Shown one piece after another: positions 1 through 9,800 of a stretch of DNA of 64,000 bases (the stretch's first letter is position 1; each line of letters begins with the position of its first letter). Source of the stretch: Triparma columacea (lineage: Eukaryota > Sar > Bolidophyceae > Parmales > Triparmaceae); contig BRYA01000053.1 of NCBI GenBank assembly GCA_030267965.1, positions 1-64,000 of the forward strand. Reading direction: 5' to 3'. The notes beneath the pieces are model-generated. The model did no database searches, was not told where the DNA came from, and was given only the letters and a program-made list of their open reading frames with translations. The position numbers and the translations under genes were made by a program.

Positions 1-70
1 TAACCCTAACCCTAACCCTAACCCTAACCCTAACCCTAACCCTAACCCTAACCCTAACCCTAACCCTAAC
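1..70. repeat. Telomere, (CCCTAA)n
   Basis: Perfect CCCTAA hexamers run from the first base to position 70. The C-rich strand reads 5' to 3' into the chromosome, so the complementary TTAGGG strand ends at position 1. This is the expected orientation for a left chromosome end rather than an internal telomere-like tract. TTAGGG is the common telomere repeat of many eukaryotes, including stramenopiles, and does not identify the species. Confidence 0.98.
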
Positions 71-316: not shown

Positions 317-728
317 CTACCTTATACTCTTCTTTTCCCTCCTCTCTTCTCTCAACTCCTCTAACACACTCACACACTCACACACCCACGCACTAATACA
401 CTCACGCACCACTCTTCCTTATATTCTCCTCTCTGCTACTCTCTCCTCTCAACCCAAAACAACTATACAACCCCCCACAAGCCTCAATCCTCCTCTCTCC
501 TCCCCCTTCCTCTCACCTACACAATACTTTCCCCACACACTCCTTTCCCTTATCCTCAGTCGCCCTCCCTCACATCCAACAAACTTCTTTTTTATCACAC
601 ACTTCTACACAGCGAAGCCTAGAACAAAACGATGCAAAAAACAAATAAACTAACAGTTTCCTACATACAACATTTCTCTAGTTTACCTCCACACCTAGAA
701 AGATCTTCCTTCCCTGCCACCAATCTCT
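96..728. repeat. Subtelomeric CT/CA-rich repeat region
   Basis: This stretch holds no gene that I can see. It is strongly strand-asymmetric, with almost no G on the plus strand. A unit of roughly 110-130 bp recurs about three times (near 100-190, 195-310 and 315-400). Each copy has a CT-rich segment containing TCTCAACT followed by CTCTA and then a long CA/CCA microsatellite. The last 300 bp are more diverged CT/CA-rich sequence leading to the 3' end of the receptor kinase gene. Confidence 0.8.
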
Positions 729-3700
729 TTAACCTTCATACTTGAGTCCAGCCAAAAGCATTGTCATCCCAGAACCACTGCTTTCAATTCCTTCCTTGTC
801 ACCTTTCTTGTCTTCTTCTGAGTTAGCTTTCACCTTTTCTTCCTTTACTGAAACTTTACTTTGCTTCACCTCCATTGGCTCTGGCATTATGCCATCATTT
901 AAAAGGCCATCAAGAAAGCTAGGCTTTACCAAAACATCAGCTGCTGTTGTAGCTGACCTTTTCATTGGTGCTGAAGCTGCTAACTTGTTTTTATGAACAG
1001 GCTCAATAGTCCTAGGCTTGTCTTCCTTCTCACCCTGCTTCATCAGCAAACCCTTCACTATCTTTGTCTCCTTGACAAGAACCTTCTCCTTGAAAAATGT
1101 CACCAGCTCTTTGGCTGTGGGCCTCTCGGTAGGCTCATGCTGCCAACACTTGCGAATGATATCAGCAAGCTCCTTATCTTCCTTCTCAACAAGCTTGAGA
1201 TCAGGCCTCCAACCCTCTCCTACCTTTTTCATTACAAGAACAGGGCCCCATCCTTTCTTGAAGCCCTTCTTTACTTCTCCATCATAGAAGATTTCTAATA
1301 GTAGGACACCAAAGGAATAGATATCTACCGCATTAGAGTATACTCTGTCTTTGCCTTCGGTGCTGAAAACTTCTGGGGCCATGAAGAAGGGGGTTCCCAC
1401 TGTAGTCATGGCTCGTTCGTCTTTTCCATCCAAATGCCTGCTCTCACCAAAGTCAGTAATCTTTGCCTTGAGGTCGTCACTGACTAGGACATTGGCGCTC
1501 TTTAGGTCCCTGTGGACGATAGGAGGATTCTTGCCGTGCAAGAAAGCACATCCCTTTACAATCTCTAGTGCCCAGACCATCTTGAGGCCAATTCCCTTGG
1601 CGAGAAGCATAGACACGGCAGACCCCTGCATATCAGTCTTCAGAGACCTTCCCTCATGTGACGCTAGGACAGCTGCTGTTTTGCTCCAGCTAGTAAGCCC
1701 GAGTTCCTTATATTTCTTCATGAAGTCATCAAGGCCGCCATTTTTGCAGAGCTCGAACATAATGCCGTGGTCCTCAAGCTCCCAAACAACCCCAAGACAT
1801 TGAGCAATGTTGGGGTGCCTTAGCGAGCCAATGAGCTTGAGCTCAAGGAAGAACCTCTCCAGGGTCTCTTGAGAGAGAGCTGATGGGAGGATCTCCTTGT
1901 AGGCACACTTTGTCCCGTGGTAATCTGCCACAAGTACATTTCCAAATGCTCCTCTACCCAATGATATTGGGGCTCCCTTTGCGTCTCTATCAAACTGAAG
2001 CTCAAAGCTTTCAACGAGTAGAGAAGGCTCAATATCATTTCTGTGGCCGTTTTTGTATTGTTGTGAGAGGGTGAGTGCCTTGTTAAAGTACTTTAATCCT
2101 AAAATGTTCTTCTCTTACCTTGTCAATTCGGAACTTTCACTACTCCTACTTTTGTACTCTTGAATCTCTCTACTCTTGTCAAACCTCTTACGCAAGTCTG
2201 AAAGCAAAGAGAGAAATTTGGGGGCTGCTACTTTGGTGAGTAAAGAAGCACTCTTTGATGAGAAAACTCCGCCTAGGTTGAATTGAGCCGATAAGGTAAC
2301 AGCTGTTTGAGGCACATTTCCAATGGGTTCCATTTTCTCGAACACCCACACAACGTGCGACTGAGTCAAGACATTTTTTTTGCCAATTGGTAATTCTTCA
2401 AGGAGATCATCAGTATCTGCGACATTTAAGATTACCTTGTCATTCAACTTCTTCCATGTGATTTTGTTTCTTGCCTCTCTTAGGCTAAATCCAGGAATAC
2501 CAAGATTCCTTGTCGAGCTGTAGTAATAGGAGTGATCGCTTATTTTCTGTACCTGGTGAAATGTGATACCCCTTTCCTTGGACTTCTTCTTGAAGCTACG
2601 GCTATACAAGTCCGAATATTCAGATCCGACGCTTTCTTCAACACTTGCATCGATGACAGCAGTAGCAAGACCAGTAGCTAAACTCCCTTCAATGGGGACG
2701 GACTTCATGGTAACCTTATCATCAGGGCTTTTCACCTTATCAAACTTGTCCCACATTGCCATCTCCTTGCACTTCTCGTACAACGCAATGCCCTTCTTGA
2801 TTGCTGCATCTTCCTCTGGGGTATAATTTTGGGGCTCGTTCTTGATGGTGTTTGCAACAGACATCACTGAAGCCCTATCAAGTACATCATCTTGAATTCC
2901 TAGGTCGTTCAACGTATTAGAAGGCGCAACTGCTGCTAATGCAGCCTTTTTTGCCAACATCCTCTCTTTGTTGGCCTTACGGATTTGAATGGTTAAGAAG
3001 AGGATGATACAAGCAGCCGCAATAATTGCTGCTATTTCTCGCTTTTTGATAGTAGAGTTGTCTTCATTTGCGTCAATTGCCATAGATGCAGTTTTATTTG
3101 CGCAGTGAATTCCAGCAAACCCAGGGTTACACTGTGTGCAGGTGCAGTTGCCTGTTGTGCCTCCAATTGTTCCACCATTGGCACAAAAGAAGTTCCCATC
3201 TCCCCTCACATCAGTTGGCTCCAAAGTGGGTTGACAGTCAGAAGGAGTCTCGCAGTGAGGACCCTCAAACCCAGAGCTACATTGGGTACAGGTGCAAGAT
3301 CCTGTACTGACTTGTGTGCTGACGTACTGACTTTCACTTGCTGACGTACTGACTTTCCCCTCAACTTTCCCCCCATTGATGCAGTAAAATCTTCCTGACT
3401 TTTCAAGTGAGCCGTCATCAGTACGATTAGCAGTTGCTTGACAACTAAGGAAAGCACAATCAGAGTAAGAATAAGGACTACCATATACATCGCCTTTAGT
3501 ATCAAGTTCACGTCCTGGGGGTGTGTCTTGGGTTAGATTTTGGCTGAAAAGGCAATTAAAGGCAGGTTGCTACGAACTTAAACCTACCTTTGGTAGCATT
3601 ATTTGAATAGTATGGGTAGGGGCATGAGTCGTGCACAGTAATGTCTCCACGAAAGTCTGGAACAGGCTTGTTGTAAATGTCATCTCCTTCATCTCCGCCA

Positions 3701-6700
3701 GTGTTGTTAAAGAAAACTGTTCCGTAGATGTTGACAATTGTCCCAGTGTTATAGACACGAACGGCTCCACCTCCAGAAAAGTCTGCATTGGGATTTGTAG
3801 CTTCACAATGGGAGAAAACACAAAGTGTAACGTCTACAATACCGCCACGACTGACATAAAGCCCGCCCCCCATATCATACTTTCCATTTGTGATAGTGAG
3901 TGCTCTGAGGGTAACAGTCTTTCCGAATGTGTAGAAGACATCAATTGCTCTACCTGATTGTTTGGGATCCAAAACACATTTTGAGCTATCGTCGATGCAC
4001 TTGCCTTCTCCGTACCAGCCGCCAACGCCAAGCATGCACCACACGGAAGCACAGTGGTTCTCACTGTTTTCTTCATCGTCATTAGTGCAAGTGTAGACTC
4101 CAGTTTCTAGAACGACTGCTTCCCCACTTTGTACTATTGCATTTCCAGTTCTGTAGGGGGCTCCTAGCATTTGGGCTTTTATGCAGAAAAATTCACTCAC
4201 GCAAACGTAACTGCTGAACTTGTTGAAAAGCTCTTCCATACTGGTTACAAGGTTATCGCGACAACCAGGGAAAGAATATGGGAAACCCAAGACAGCTCCA
4301 CTTGTATCTAAAGGAAATCCTAAGAGTTGGACAGTATTAGTTAGTACCTAAGTGCTTCAGAGAAGATCTTTGTGAACTTACCTTGTGTCGGATTGTTGGA
4401 CTGGTAGGGTGGAGGGCAGGTCTCGTGTAGGGTTATACTACCAGGGTCATAGGGATTGATCATAATATCATTGCCACCGCTGATTGCTTCATTATCCAAA
4501 AAGCTCACACCAAAAGTGTTAACAGTTGTTTCCACACCAAGTACAAGAATGGCGCCACCGCCCAAAATTGCATTCTTGGAATTGCACTTAGTGAAGTGGC
4601 ATAGAACAAGATCTACTATGGCACCACTTGAGATGGCCATCCCTCCTCCACCAGCATTTGTGCCCACCCCCTTGAAAAAGGAAATTGCTCTGAGAGTGAA
4701 TTTGGCATCTCCAGTTCCTGCAACATACATTCCTTTGTTTGCACTTTCTCCGTCTAAAACGCAACTTGCATCATCTTGCACACACTTCATTTCTCCATGC
4801 AAGTCTTCTGTGTACAACATGTAGTTGTCGTACCCCTTTGCACAAATCCCCTCAGAGCATTTATATGCTCTGACAGCCAAAATCACTGTGTCATTGTTAG
4901 CCATGATGTAATTCCCTGCTTCGGTAGCTTCATAGGATATATCTCCTTTAGAATTGCTGATGGTATTGAAAAGCCCTTCCATGTCATCAACGTGGTGGGG
5001 GTTAGCACAGTTGACGCCGTCAAAACCAGTGTTGCATGAAGTGCAGCTGCAGGAACCTAAATTCCCGCCAATCTCCCCGTTGATACAGTAAAATTTAGCT
5101 TGTGAGCTAATGGACCCATCGTCGGTTGGAGTTGACGTTGCGAGACAAAGTTCAGGAACACAACTTGGAAAGTTGCCACTGTACCCTGAGGGGCACCTTG
5201 CACAGTAGAAGGAGTGGGCTGGGCCAAAAATGCTGCCTATAGAGCTCAAAACAGCACGATCTTGTGAAAATTTAAGGGTTTGGAAGCAAGGTGTAGTTAG
5301 AAGTCAGTAATGTCCATTTAGATAAGGGTTGCACACTACTTTTTCTAGACTTACCTTTTATTGGAGGGTGGGAGTAATGTGGCGAGGGGCATGTGCTGTG
5401 GATATTAATGTTTCCGCCAAAATTGCTGATGTCATTACAATCTCCACAAACTGCACTATCTGGTGCGATGTTGTTAGTGAAGCTTGTTCCAAACAGATTG
5501 AATGTGACTGGTCTGTGGTAGATTGCGATTCCAGCGCCAAATCCAGCCACATTATTCTGGAAGTGACATAGAACTAAATCACAAACACCTGAAGCCAATT
5601 CTACCCCCGCACCACCATTAGCTGTAAAACAGTTCTGAAAAGTTAATGCTCTGATAGTGAGTTTATTACTATCGAGATCGCCATGCACAAACATGCCTCT
5701 TCTTGAGGCCTCTCCATCTATAATGCAGCTTGCATCGTCTTCGGTACACCTCACATAACCATTCAGATTATTTGTTTTCAGCATGTTTTCATCGTGATTG
5801 CAAATAGCAAAAGGCACTGAGCAATTGTATGTTTTGACTGACAAGAGTGCAGTCGTGCCACTTTCCAAAATGCTGCTGCCAGTGTAGTGGACCCTGTTCT
5901 TCAATTCAGTCATGGAAGAAACCTGTACAAATTGAGACTCGCAACTATCTCCAAAGAAACCAGTATCGCAAGAAGTGCAAGTACAGAAGCCAGTAGTACC
6001 ACCAAGACTTCCCCCATTTACACAGTAGAAGTTGCCGTCAGATCCGTCATCAGTTGGGGTGCTTGTAGCAACACAGTCATCTGCTGCACAGGTTGTCCCA
6101 CTATAGCCAGCTGCACAAGTGGCACAGTTTGGATCACCGAAACCAATGTTGCATCTGCAGTAGCAAGTTCCTGCCACCCCAGATCCTGACGTCCCCATAA
6201 TATTCCCATTGACACAGTAAAGGTTGCCGTCAGAGCCATTATCTGAGGGGTTTGATGTCGCGGTACATGGATCACCAGAACATATAAATCCCATGGAACT
6301 AGAGCCTGTATTGTCGTTAAAACCATTGGCATCAATCTGAAGATGATTTTCTCCACTTCCTACTACATGAGGGTTGAACCCAGAATTACTGGGTTCTCCG
6401 ACTTGCCACTTTTGGTAGTCCCACTCAGAGCCGTCTGTCCATGCCCAGACACCTTCCGTGGTGGCATCGGTCCCTCCTATCCAGCACCCAACAGCTTCAG
6501 GACAAATGGATGCAACATTAGAAAACTCTTCGTCATTGTGGATGGATGCGAGATCGTGGAAATTGTCGCGGCAGTAGGTGAGTGCATCATTGAAGGGCTT
6601 TGCCTGGTTGATGAAGGCAAAGCCTTGGCTTGTTGACAGTATCCTGCGAAGAGCGGAGTAAGTATGGAGATCAAAGGGGGACAAACCTTTAGTCGATTGT

Positions 6701-6889
6701 GATTGAAACGGTGGACTATGAGACACCCCATTTAAGAAGTTTAGTTCCTGTCAACATCGTCCTTATCCTCCCTTAGCTTTCTTCTGCCCATTCTCACCTT
6801 TGTGAACTTTCTTCCTTCGCAGCAACAAGACTGGCCAAGACACTGAGTCCAAACAGGCACTTGCCAAGACGACCTACCCTCCCAGTCAT
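729..6889 (-). CDS. Transmembrane receptor kinase: C-type lectin, EGF-like, three PMP-like beta-helix modules, TKL-type kinase
   Basis: Proposed CDS is complement of 729-2040, 2119-3514, 3588-4319, 4382-5236, 5355-6643 and 6798-6889; every junction keeps frame, giving 1,891 aa. Residues 1-26 form a signal peptide (ATG at 6889; another ATG at 6916 is possible). A C-type lectin-like domain spans about 35-150. Cys-rich EGF-like modules follow, with three right-handed beta-helix modules at about 260-430, 540-715 and 780-959, each with GGGA-type and FxxN motifs as in chlamydial polymorphic membrane proteins. More EGF-like repeats, a membrane helix near 1122-1141 and a possible START-like region (about 1240-1420) come before the kinase (about 1453-1760). 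The kinase has the glycine loop LGRGAFG, AYKE lysine, HRDLKSAN, DFGES and MAPE, so it should be active. The hinge region has an extra insertion. Likely a cell-surface sensor of carbohydrate or particle ligands; ligand unknown. Confidence 0.8.
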
Positions 6890-9800
6890 CACCAAGGGCT
6901 TTCTAGTCTTCCCCATTATTGATCCGACATTGCTCACGCAACCGCTTGCCCGAAGGATGAGTGATGCAAACATTCCAACAGAGCAGAGAAGGAAGCTCAT
7001 GGTTGTGCTTGTACATGCTGATATACTATCGGTACCATCGAGCATCACGCAGCGCATGTCGCCTTCAGCAGCGATGCTCTTTTCTTGAACAGGCTCACGA
7101 CGTGCATCGTCCCCCGAACCGGCAACATCGGAGTCCTCAGATATCCAGCCATCGTCACAGTCGTAGAGATATCTAGCGCGAATCGATTTAATCGCCTCAA
7201 ATGGCATATGCCTTGTCTGTGTTGGGGTCGGTTCACTTTCATCCGAGTACCTGGTTACTGATGTTGCATCCCTGCTGACAGTAATGTTGAGCTTTGAAGG
7301 AACTGCAGTGCCAACCCCACGTTCGATGGTGGACGAGACGTCGCTTGAATAATTCTCGATTGCAAAGGGTGCATCAATAGGACCAACAGGTCGACCTGAA
7401 ACTGTCGGTATGACGTCCGTCGCCAACGTTAGCTCTGAAAGAGCCGAAGCGACAGTCGCGTGTCCAGCGGCCAAAAGTATCTTCTCGTGGGTCGTGTCCT
7501 TGGCGTAAGCAAGCATCTCGGTGACACTGTCGTCGCCGTTTCCGGCAACACCGTGCATCACCATGCCCATTGCTAGGCCGGCTACCTCTCCGGCGACGGC
7601 GGAGTCTGTGTAAAGCACGTCCTTGAGCTCGTTAAAGATGGCGGGGTCCCTGCAGCCGAGGCCGGCAAGGCCAATTCCAGTGGCGGCGCCAATTCCAGTG
7701 GCGGCGCCAATTCCAGTGGCGGCGCCAATTCCAGTGGCGGCGCCAATTCCAGTGGCGGCGTTCGAGGAGCACTTCCTGAGCTGATGCTTGAGGTACCCAG
7801 TGGTGGATTGCCTCTTCTCGTACGGGTAGTTTGGCTCAGCGTGGTTGAGACCAAGGGCCATGAGGGCTCGTCCCTCAGAGTAACCGGACTTGGGAGCAAT
7901 GGTGGCGCCATCTGCGGGGAGGTACGGGTCCAGGAGCTCCATCGCCTCCCCGACATGGCCGTGGCGAATGCAGCCGAGCCCCGCGTTGGAGGCCTTCTTG
8001 AGGAAGTCAAGGTTGTCGCGGAGGAAGGTATCGTTGGTCGTGCCTGCGTTAATTAAGGCGTGGGTATGGATCGACATAAAATGGAGCATGGAGTTGCGGG
8101 AGCTCTGCGGGATGAGGAAGTAGGGGAATGGGGGGGTTTGGGTTGTTAGGGTTGTGCGTCCTGCTGAGACCCTGCCTGCTGCTGTGCGCCCTGTCTGCTC
8201 GTGTGTGCCCTGCCTGCTACTGCCTGCCCTGCATGCCATCTCGCTCACCTTTTCTTCGAGCGACTTTTTGAGGTTCTTGATGATGAGGGGGTCGGAGTCC
8301 GACTCCTTGTAGACGAAGGCGAGCTCGAGCTCTCCCGCGAATCCTCCGAGCATGAATCTCATGCACTTGTCGTAACCGTCCTTGAGGTCGCCAACCATCT
8401 CCCCCCCCATTCCCTTGATACCCTTGGCCACGGCCGCCACAAAATGCTGGTCGCCGGTGTTGACGAGGTCGAAGCAGAGCTGAAGGGCCATGAGGTTGGA
8501 GTCCTCGCCCTCCTTGAGGAGGGCATGGATGAGCTTCCAGACGTCCTCGCTATTGCCTAGGAGGTGGTCGCACATGCAACGCGACGCGTAGTCCATGTGC
8601 GAGGGAGGGAGGCCCTTGATCTGCTCCGCGATGACCTTGAGGGCGGCCCTACTCCTAGACTCGGCTCCCACCGATTGCAGAGGAACTGAGGCGGTCATGT
8701 TGTCAAACAGCAACCCTGATAAGTTGGCTGGGGCAACAGCGTTGTGCTGCGCAAGATCCTCGAAAACGGTCAGGACATTCTTCTTCACCCCCTCCTTTAG
8801 GCCTTTGGGGGCTTCGTTTCGAAGAAGGTCGTTCTTGACTTCAAAACCAAGGCTTTTCTCATCATTATGCCAATCGTTGAGGCGAGCTGCGACAGGAACA
8901 GTGTCGTAGGCAATATGGGGGGAGACGACTGTGGTGCGGTGGGAGGCGCGGGGAGGAGGGAGATGAGCGGCAGAGGGCGCACGAGGGAGGTGAGTACATT
9001 AACGTAGAAGAGAGCGTGCATGGTACGCAAAGGATGAAACCCCCCTCCTCCTAGACTCACCTCCCAAGGATTGCAGAGGAACTGAGGCGGTCACGTTGTC
9101 GGCGACAACGAGCTCGACGTTGTTGTATACAACATCGGGTTGCTCGGTGGTAATTTGCACTGCACCGTTGACACGGGCTGCCTTTGCCTGAGTTGTGGTT
9201 GCCTGCTTCTTCACCGCAGCAGCTCCTGGTTGTTTGCCGAATGGGCGTTGTGGAGCAAGCTCGATCACGGAAATGACCTTATCAGCCACATGCGCACGCA
9301 CGCCGTCGTTCGCCTCCTGCCCCCTGTTCACCCCTCCCGATGCCCCGTTGGGTGCACAAGAATTCTCCAATCCATCCACGACCTCGGATCGCTCAAAACC
9401 TCCGTCGTCTTCAGCTACCACCCTTCCGTCGTCGTTTCCTGCAGTCTGTCTGCCACAGAAGGCATGTCCTGGTTGTGAAATGGGGGGCAGAGCTGATGCA
9501 AAGATGAAGCACAAAATTGCAAGGAGACATGTCCAGCAGGTCAAACGAGAGGAGCCCCAGCCGCTTCCCCTGTTCACCGTCCCGGAATCTCGACCGCGTC
9601 TCTTCCAATGTCCCAATTCGCCACGCTCGGAAGCTTTGCTACGGCCAACTCTTGATTCTCCCTCAATGCTCTCAATCTCGGTCTTGGCAAGTCTCACTGA
9701 GGGGCCGTTGCGACCCTCCAGGCGAGCTGCGACGGGAACACTTTCGTCGGCAACATGGGGGTAGGCGACTGCGATGCGGTGGCGGGGGATGAGGAGAGAG

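Follow-up and report, generated by a model that had tools for sequence, protein, structure and literature searches.

Gene families that recombine at chromosome ends are best known as antigen and adhesin genes of parasites and yeasts; the var genes of Plasmodium and the VSG genes of trypanosomes are subtelomeric antigen families whose sequences become mosaic by ectopic recombination. In plants, lectin receptor kinases join a lectin to a kinase, and wheat WKS1 combines a kinase with a START domain. Triparma columacea belongs to the Bolidophyceae, the sister group of diatoms. In the covered parts of a report on Tetrahymena, young leucine-rich-repeat (LRR) genes lie in subtelomeric and pericentromeric regions (PMC6564038), and the covered parts of a report on the Parmales list START among the most enriched domains and mention START multi-domain proteins with kinases (PMC10328945).

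Here, we analyzed the first 64,000 nucleotides of T. columacea contig BRYA01000053.1 (the window; the contig is C53 below). On balance, we consider it probable that the receptor kinase gene at its start is an active-looking copy of a recombining chromosome-end family of single-pass receptor kinases, with recognition as the likeliest role. The family resembles var and VSG genes in its subtelomeric place and mosaic sequences, but the intracellular START and kinase parts appear to be exchanged themselves, the organism is a free-living alga, and the family is known from genome sequence. Unlike plant lectin kinases and WKS1, it combines an animal-type C-type lectin, EGF-like and helix-like modules with a START domain between membrane and kinase. 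The Tetrahymena genes are likewise a large young family near chromosome ends with symmetric exons of a single phase; this phase is 2 there, according to the covered text (PMC6564038), and 1 in the Triparma receptors, which carry lectin/EGF/helix-like modules instead of LRRs and a shared kinase whose exon points toward the contig end. The Parmales report concerns the same organism group, yet its covered parts do not describe this receptor architecture, a chromosome-end location or mosaicism, and the words “lectin” and “chromosome” have zero occurrences in the covered main text (PMC10328945). Our literature search, with most subscription journals outside its scope, gave no title or abstract opening describing this family, and for bolidophyte chromosomes only general telomere papers were among the matches listed. 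In the Triparma strigata protein TrST_g9744 (P0122), EGF and helix-like repeats are also present, and 72% of the ectodomain query aligns with it at 36% identity; in contrast to the window gene its chain has no Pfam match, hence no kinase.

Architecture of the receptor gene next to the telomere

The gene is a predicted model of six exons on the minus strand (729-6916; Table 1), with splice sites placed by hand via frames, phases and homology, and encodes 1,900 aa with 0 internal stops. All introns are GT-AG, with phases 2,1,1,1,2. Since the stop codon is ~660 bp inward from the (TAACCC) array, the initial annotation was right to place the gene within 1 kb of the telomere. It also held that exons 3 and 4 are symmetric, which agrees with their phases and with lengths of 855 and 732 nt, both divisible by three. 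Its exon layout was confirmed as a gene model but had to be corrected at the start of exon 2, now 6643, and at the last intron, now 2118-2041 (78 nt); a 20-nt last intron (acceptor 2099) was discarded because it is incompatible in phase and because paralogue matches mostly begin near acceptor 2041. At the other end, exon 1 is embedded at the end of an RPN2-like open frame, which leaves the true 5' end of the receptor uncertain. Besides a match to the RPN2 N-terminus (E 2.2e-6), this ORF (6794-8998, minus strand, 734 aa) contains an 18-bp tandem repeat and a proteasome repeat; it looks like a proteasome-subunit copy adjoining or fused to the receptor 5' end.

Table 1. Positions in the window of the telomere array, the exons and the sequence tracts shared with other copies.
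Feature	Position	Strand	Remarks
Telomere array (TAACCC)n	1..70	.	Start of C53; Tandem Repeats Finder: 11.7 copies, 100% match
99-bp tract, 3' flank	425..523	minus	Repetitive character; identical to end of contig C685 (C685a); raw run length
60-bp tract around stop codon	727..786	minus	Identical to C557 start copy (C557a); raw run length
Exon 6	729..2040	minus	Protein kinase domain (~1964-1095) and C-terminal tail
101-bp tract	1156..1256	minus	Identical to C98; kinase otherwise ~75% identical
Exon 5	2119..3514	minus	EGF-like stretches, transmembrane segment (~3040-2979, by eye), START (~2864-2121)
Exon 4	3588..4319	minus	Helix-like repeat 3 (~4245-3588); symmetric 1-1
Exon 3	4382..5236	minus	EGF-like stretch and helix-like repeat 2 (~4988-4382); symmetric 1-1
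Exon 2	5355..6643	minus	C-type lectin (6277-6603), EGF-like stretch, helix-like repeat 1 (~5919-5355); phase-1 end
Exon 1	6798..6916	minus	Signal-type N-terminus; ATG 6916 or 6889; 5' end uncertain

For the ectodomain, the previously proposed C-type lectin was recovered as a Lectin_C match above the curated cut-off (Pfam E 3.9e-10), and its closest solved chain is the macrophage mannose receptor (E 2.8e-14). By eye, the translation contains putative GEPS and FND-type sites, and a cysteine pair is apparently missing. Searched against the genome, the window lectin matches only itself (1 match; 5 candidates scored); the Lectin_C profile has 8 matches on 6 contigs, and the window gene is the only member of the kinase family found with Lectin_C. 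Besides, a Bolidomonas transcriptome protein (P0123), a REJ/PKD protein that we take to be polycystin-type, carries related ectodomain sequence in one chain with a Lectin_C match below the cut-off (E 8.5e-4). The EGF-like modules of the initial annotation stand as cysteine patterns assigned by eye, but no Pfam EGF family was matched in the window; exons 3, 4 and 5 have zero Pfam matches up to E 0.1. Eight of ten paralogue ectodomain pieces lack any Pfam match up to E 0.01, and the other two have weak laminin/attractin-EGF matches below the cut-off.

The three modules described before as PMP-like beta-helices are mutually homologous repeats (29-39% identity), but their fold is weakly supported: a structure model of low confidence (pLDDT 67.6) gave many right-handed beta-helix enzymes among its top PDB matches, the best at E 0.096 and prob ≤0.89. 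As had been noted for the CP-PY-SNNPT-G-type ends, each window repeat terminates in a CP.PY..G motif that is cut by a phase-1 donor. A regular expression derived from the window's own motif found 16 matches in the family loci examined, and in 15 of them the Gly codon is divided as G|GTR. Three of these 15 lie in the window itself, and the sixteenth match runs antisense to the gene. The phase-1 join is thus a family-wide property. At the same threshold, two or three helix-like repeats per gene were found in the window and five longer loci, and one in the C463 stretch. Two adjacent repeats in C242 are 84% identical, which fits a tandem exon duplication.

Between the membrane segment and the kinase, exon 5 contains a START domain that was absent from the initial annotation. 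The region has no Pfam match in the window; a structure model from seven sequences (best of five pLDDT 77.8, pTM 0.79; two of five poor, ~35) matches human StAR in Foldseek (E 7e-11, prob 1.00, TM 0.53/0.68, rmsd 5.0, 17% identity) as well as the CERT START (E 1.4e-9) and STARD4 in the PDB. On the basis of this model, we assign exon 5 a predicted lipid-binding-type START domain of helix-grip fold. A START-only protein database search returned one protein. START is an optional part of the family genes, because the kinase genes of C242, C68a and C174 and the metagenome relative P0003 are without START match. An intron-like break ahead of the kinase exon occurs with some START groups and is missing with others.

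Exon 6 encodes a kinase (PK_Tyr_Ser-Thr, Pfam E 8.8e-45) that we compared at 30 loci, namely that of the window and 29 further ones with 56-80% identity. K, E, HRD, DFG and APE are identical in 30/30 family kinases, as are 14 of 15 catalytic positions, the remaining one being identical in the 29 that align there. The best solved chain is plant CTR1 (Raf-like, E 1.9e-31), followed by STE20-like and Src chains. CTR1 is presumably a TKL kinase. Of the proposed apparently active TKL-type kinase, the intact catalytic residues are retained, and TKL is a candidate class suggested by the best chain. The median dN/dS is 0.09 over those of the 435 pairs with computable dS, a rough value as dS is mostly high, and by this measure the kinase is under purifying selection. 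As the catalytic residues are kept and dN/dS is low, the family copies look functional. The term “fast-evolving” used initially would therefore apply at most to ectodomain and START.

Position of the family in the genome

The published T. columacea assembly is a Platanus short-read assembly of 43.0 Mb in 1,858 scaffolds with an N50 of 63.5 kb, according to the covered parts of its report (PMC10328945); the genome set searched here comprises 37.85 Mb in 789 contigs. In agreement with the species, it matches the T. columacea database protein TrCOL_g854 (1,570 aa) at 100% along residues 1-1565, at C8:83261-87955. With 94 of 234 genome kinase candidates scored, all family counts are to be read as “at least”. 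At 24 of the 30 kinase loci, the 3' end of the match lies within 2.5 kb of the contig end that it faces. With place and strand randomized on the same contigs, 1.9 such loci would be expected, and none of 200,000 simulations gave more than 10; the opposite sense, with the 5' end at the contig end, occurs at 0/30. Consequently, the kinase side points at the chromosome end, and the paralogue search proposed with the initial annotation finds copies at many chromosome ends. Nineteen loci extend to a contig end; seven of them (C53, C557 start, C247, C329, C463, C242, C68) carry telomere repeats and the other twelve show none there. Six copies lie away from contig ends (C658, C685b, C557b, C369, C68b, C254). 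The location test covers the 30 loci and omits weaker or partial pieces (C13, C358, C743, C239, C500, C465 and others), of which C13, C358 and C743 are near contig starts and C465 is away from them.

A second, much larger family is found in similar places, mostly close to contig ends and with the 3' end facing outward. Its proteins of 1,500-2,500 aa join START-type domains to XK-related repeats, which are presumably scramblase-type; the two T. columacea entries among the 120 listed of 470 matches in a protein search are of this START/XK-related type and not kinases. On C48 (L039, 1006-7305), a contig that opens with telomere repeats, an open frame of this type terminates ~1 kb short of the contig start. 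Searching the genome with a DNA pattern taken from the XK-related part gave 442 exact matches (control 0); among the first 100 of these places, 45 of 48 on the minus strand and 0 of 52 on the plus strand are ≤10 kb from the contig start.

With one of the STARTs in the XK-related proteins, the window START shares 53-56% identity, against 35-44% with the STARTs of other receptors; for the STARTs of C247 and C463, identity to the same XK-related proteins is 47-51%, above their identity to the C53 START. Although these identities suggest that the C53 START derives from the XK-related family, we did not adopt this origin, as a START tree with a receptor-only clade is not rejected (AU p 0.25) and C247 and C463 are XK-nearest as well; the XK-related STARTs may merely have changed least. 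At a further locus near a contig start, C358 (L046, ~2081-8965), neighboring frames hold ectodomain repeats, a TRP-like membrane region (E 9.9e-6, which is below the cut-off), START, an XK-type stretch that is truncated, and the C-terminal tail of the receptor kinases. It is possibly a fusion between two chromosome-end families, and may represent a single gene, a pseudogene or sequences joined by the assembly.

Concerning chromosome size, outward-facing telomere-type arrays occur at both ends of C70 (~75 kb apart) and C364 (~65 kb apart), and nine contigs (C8, C34, C46, C67, C75, C97, C107, C126, C145) have an XK-module near the start (minus) and again 65-92 kb on (plus). The nuclear genome may hold many very small chromosomes. 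For C53 itself, a complete mini-chromosome is not supported: the contig breaks off at its far end within a gene of cysteine-rich repeats, with no telomere repeat in the last 876 bases, and this end is a plain assembly break. This large gene (67000-75174, L041) has repeated cysteine-rich modules that are Ephrin-receptor-like by eye.

Mosaic sequences and exchange between copies

In the kinase tree (30 rows), C53, C68b, C773, C254, C566 and C98 form one clade with support 100/99. The last five of these fall into three groups in the START tree (35 rows), with support 100/99, 100/100 and, for the group of C254, 89/82. AU tests reject the kinase clade on the START data (p 7e-9 for six rows, 3e-91 for five rows) and two START groups on the kinase data (p 1e-7 and 9e-6), the groups for each data set being drawn from the tree of the other. 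On these tests, a shared history of kinase and START is rejected.

Pairwise identities among 26 of the 30 loci (C242, C68a and C174, which have no START match, and C557b were left out) point in the same direction, with kinases of 96-98% identity joined to STARTs of 31-38% identity and the reverse combination also occurring. Kinases of ≥90% go with STARTs of <60% in 34 of 325 pairs, and kinases of <78% with STARTs of ≥85% in 12 of 325; these values come from local alignments of unequal length, and some START matches span only ~190 residues as only one blast piece was kept. C773 and C98, for example, share 98% in the kinase and 38% in START, while C773 and C369 share 76% and 91%, respectively, which argues for exchange in both directions. 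In DNA profiles, one breakpoint coincides with the beginning of the kinase exon, where C773/C98 identity rises from 44-67% to 89-100%, and another lies ~300 nt into this exon, where C773/C369 identity falls from 86-98% to 66%. Because high identity stops ~400 bp beyond the stop codon in C773/C98 and C773/C254, and sooner in other pairs, conversion tracts would fit better than an exchange of whole chromosome tips.

The window copy belongs to an old lineage (dS 1.5-2.8 where computable), and its kinase includes the 101-bp tract listed in Table 1, a length reached by 0 of 1,000 codon shuffles (longest run 41). Since the close relatives C773 (80 bp) and C68b, C566 and C254 (59 bp each) share parts of the same tract, it probably reflects one conversion or exchange event. 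The remaining paralogues have zero runs beyond the shuffle range against the window kinase. Further raw identical runs are the other two tracts of Table 1 and a 67-bp tract between the window gene and C685b. Together with the G|GTR joins across family loci, the trees, AU tests and identity profiles bear out the initial suggestion that the modules are phase-matched and swappable, and the recombining chromosome-end receptor family is well supported by these comparisons.

Rival readings and possible role of the family

A technical origin has to be considered, in which the mosaics are short-read chimeric contigs joined at near-identical kinase exons and the true family has simply diverged vertically. 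The covered text describes a Platanus assembly of Illumina reads (PMC10328945), and the 95-98% identity of the C773-group kinases is a condition that favors misjoins. However, the kinase sequence differs from copy to copy, and each border is crossed by an open frame or marked by an intron-like break; among L009-L038, N was found only in L035, which means that scaffold gaps are absent from the borders of the mosaic loci; the 101-bp tract sits within one exon between divergent flanks and would require two misjoins; and JGI metagenome proteins contain the kinase with (P0002) and without (P0003) a START-matching region. We therefore regard chimeric assembly as unlikely. Even less probable, and in our judgment very improbable, is that the lectin/ectodomain and the kinase are two neighboring genes. 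Exon 1 does lie within the open frame that has the RPN2-like stretch, but exon 2 holds lectin, EGF-like stretch and helix-like repeat in one open frame, all five intron phases of the model are compatible, and a single open frame covers EGF part, START and kinase in C463 (1,118 aa) and C116 (1,162 aa). The metagenome protein P0002 likewise joins a helix-repeat end, a membrane segment (by eye), the START-matching region and the kinase in one chain. As these paralogue frames and this chain link the parts, one fused gene is supported.

A more serious competitor concerns meaning rather than structure: the proteins could be generic sensors of cell wall, silica, osmotic or life-cycle cues, placed at ends as a by-product of many chromosome ends and without selected diversification. 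On many contigs, START/XK-related genes show this arrangement of strand and end too, so that the location is not receptor-specific, the kinase is strongly conserved, and two contigs carry outward telomere-type arrays at both ends only 65-75 kb apart. On the other hand, repeated START/kinase swaps, variable ectodomain repeats and a lectin in a single member go beyond what would follow from location alone, although the exchange may be neutral. Taken together, we see this reading as possible but rather doubtful.

In the recombining receptor family that we favor, the lectin, EGF and helix-like repeats would be displayed at the cell surface and bind ligands there, a START domain with a lipid-sensing or lipid-docking role would receive the binding signal through the membrane, and intracellular signaling would fall to the kinase. 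Through ectopic recombination and gene conversion among chromosome ends, varied ectodomain/START halves would repeatedly be joined to a shared kinase and tail, giving a receptor set with varied input and common output. Parmaleans are predicted to be phago-mixotrophs in the covered text of PMC10328945, and the likeliest use would be the recognition of particles or cells such as prey bacteria; mates or pathogens are also possible. More tentatively, and with a chance that we put somewhat short of even, many chromosome ends might act as a combinatorial workshop in which the telomere-side slot holds either a receptor kinase or a START/XK-related protein and exchange builds receptors. It would proceed via the shared START and the phase-matched exons, with the piece of kinase plus chromosome end as a shared plug onto which varied ectodomains fit. 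The window gene, with a START nearer to the XK-related family and a lectin found in no other member, would be a product of this workshop. Against this stand the STARTs of C247 and C463, which are likewise nearer to XK-related STARTs than to that of C53; at C358, XK-type and channel-like stretches adjoin a receptor-kinase tail.

If the favored reading is true, the family offers a tractable case of the evolution of a receptor repertoire in phytoplankton, in which the signaling half is the exchanged, telomere-side module, and whose setting is, unlike that of the parasite and yeast families, a free-living sister group of diatoms. It would also provide a concrete candidate for how small phagotrophic algae distinguish particles or cells.
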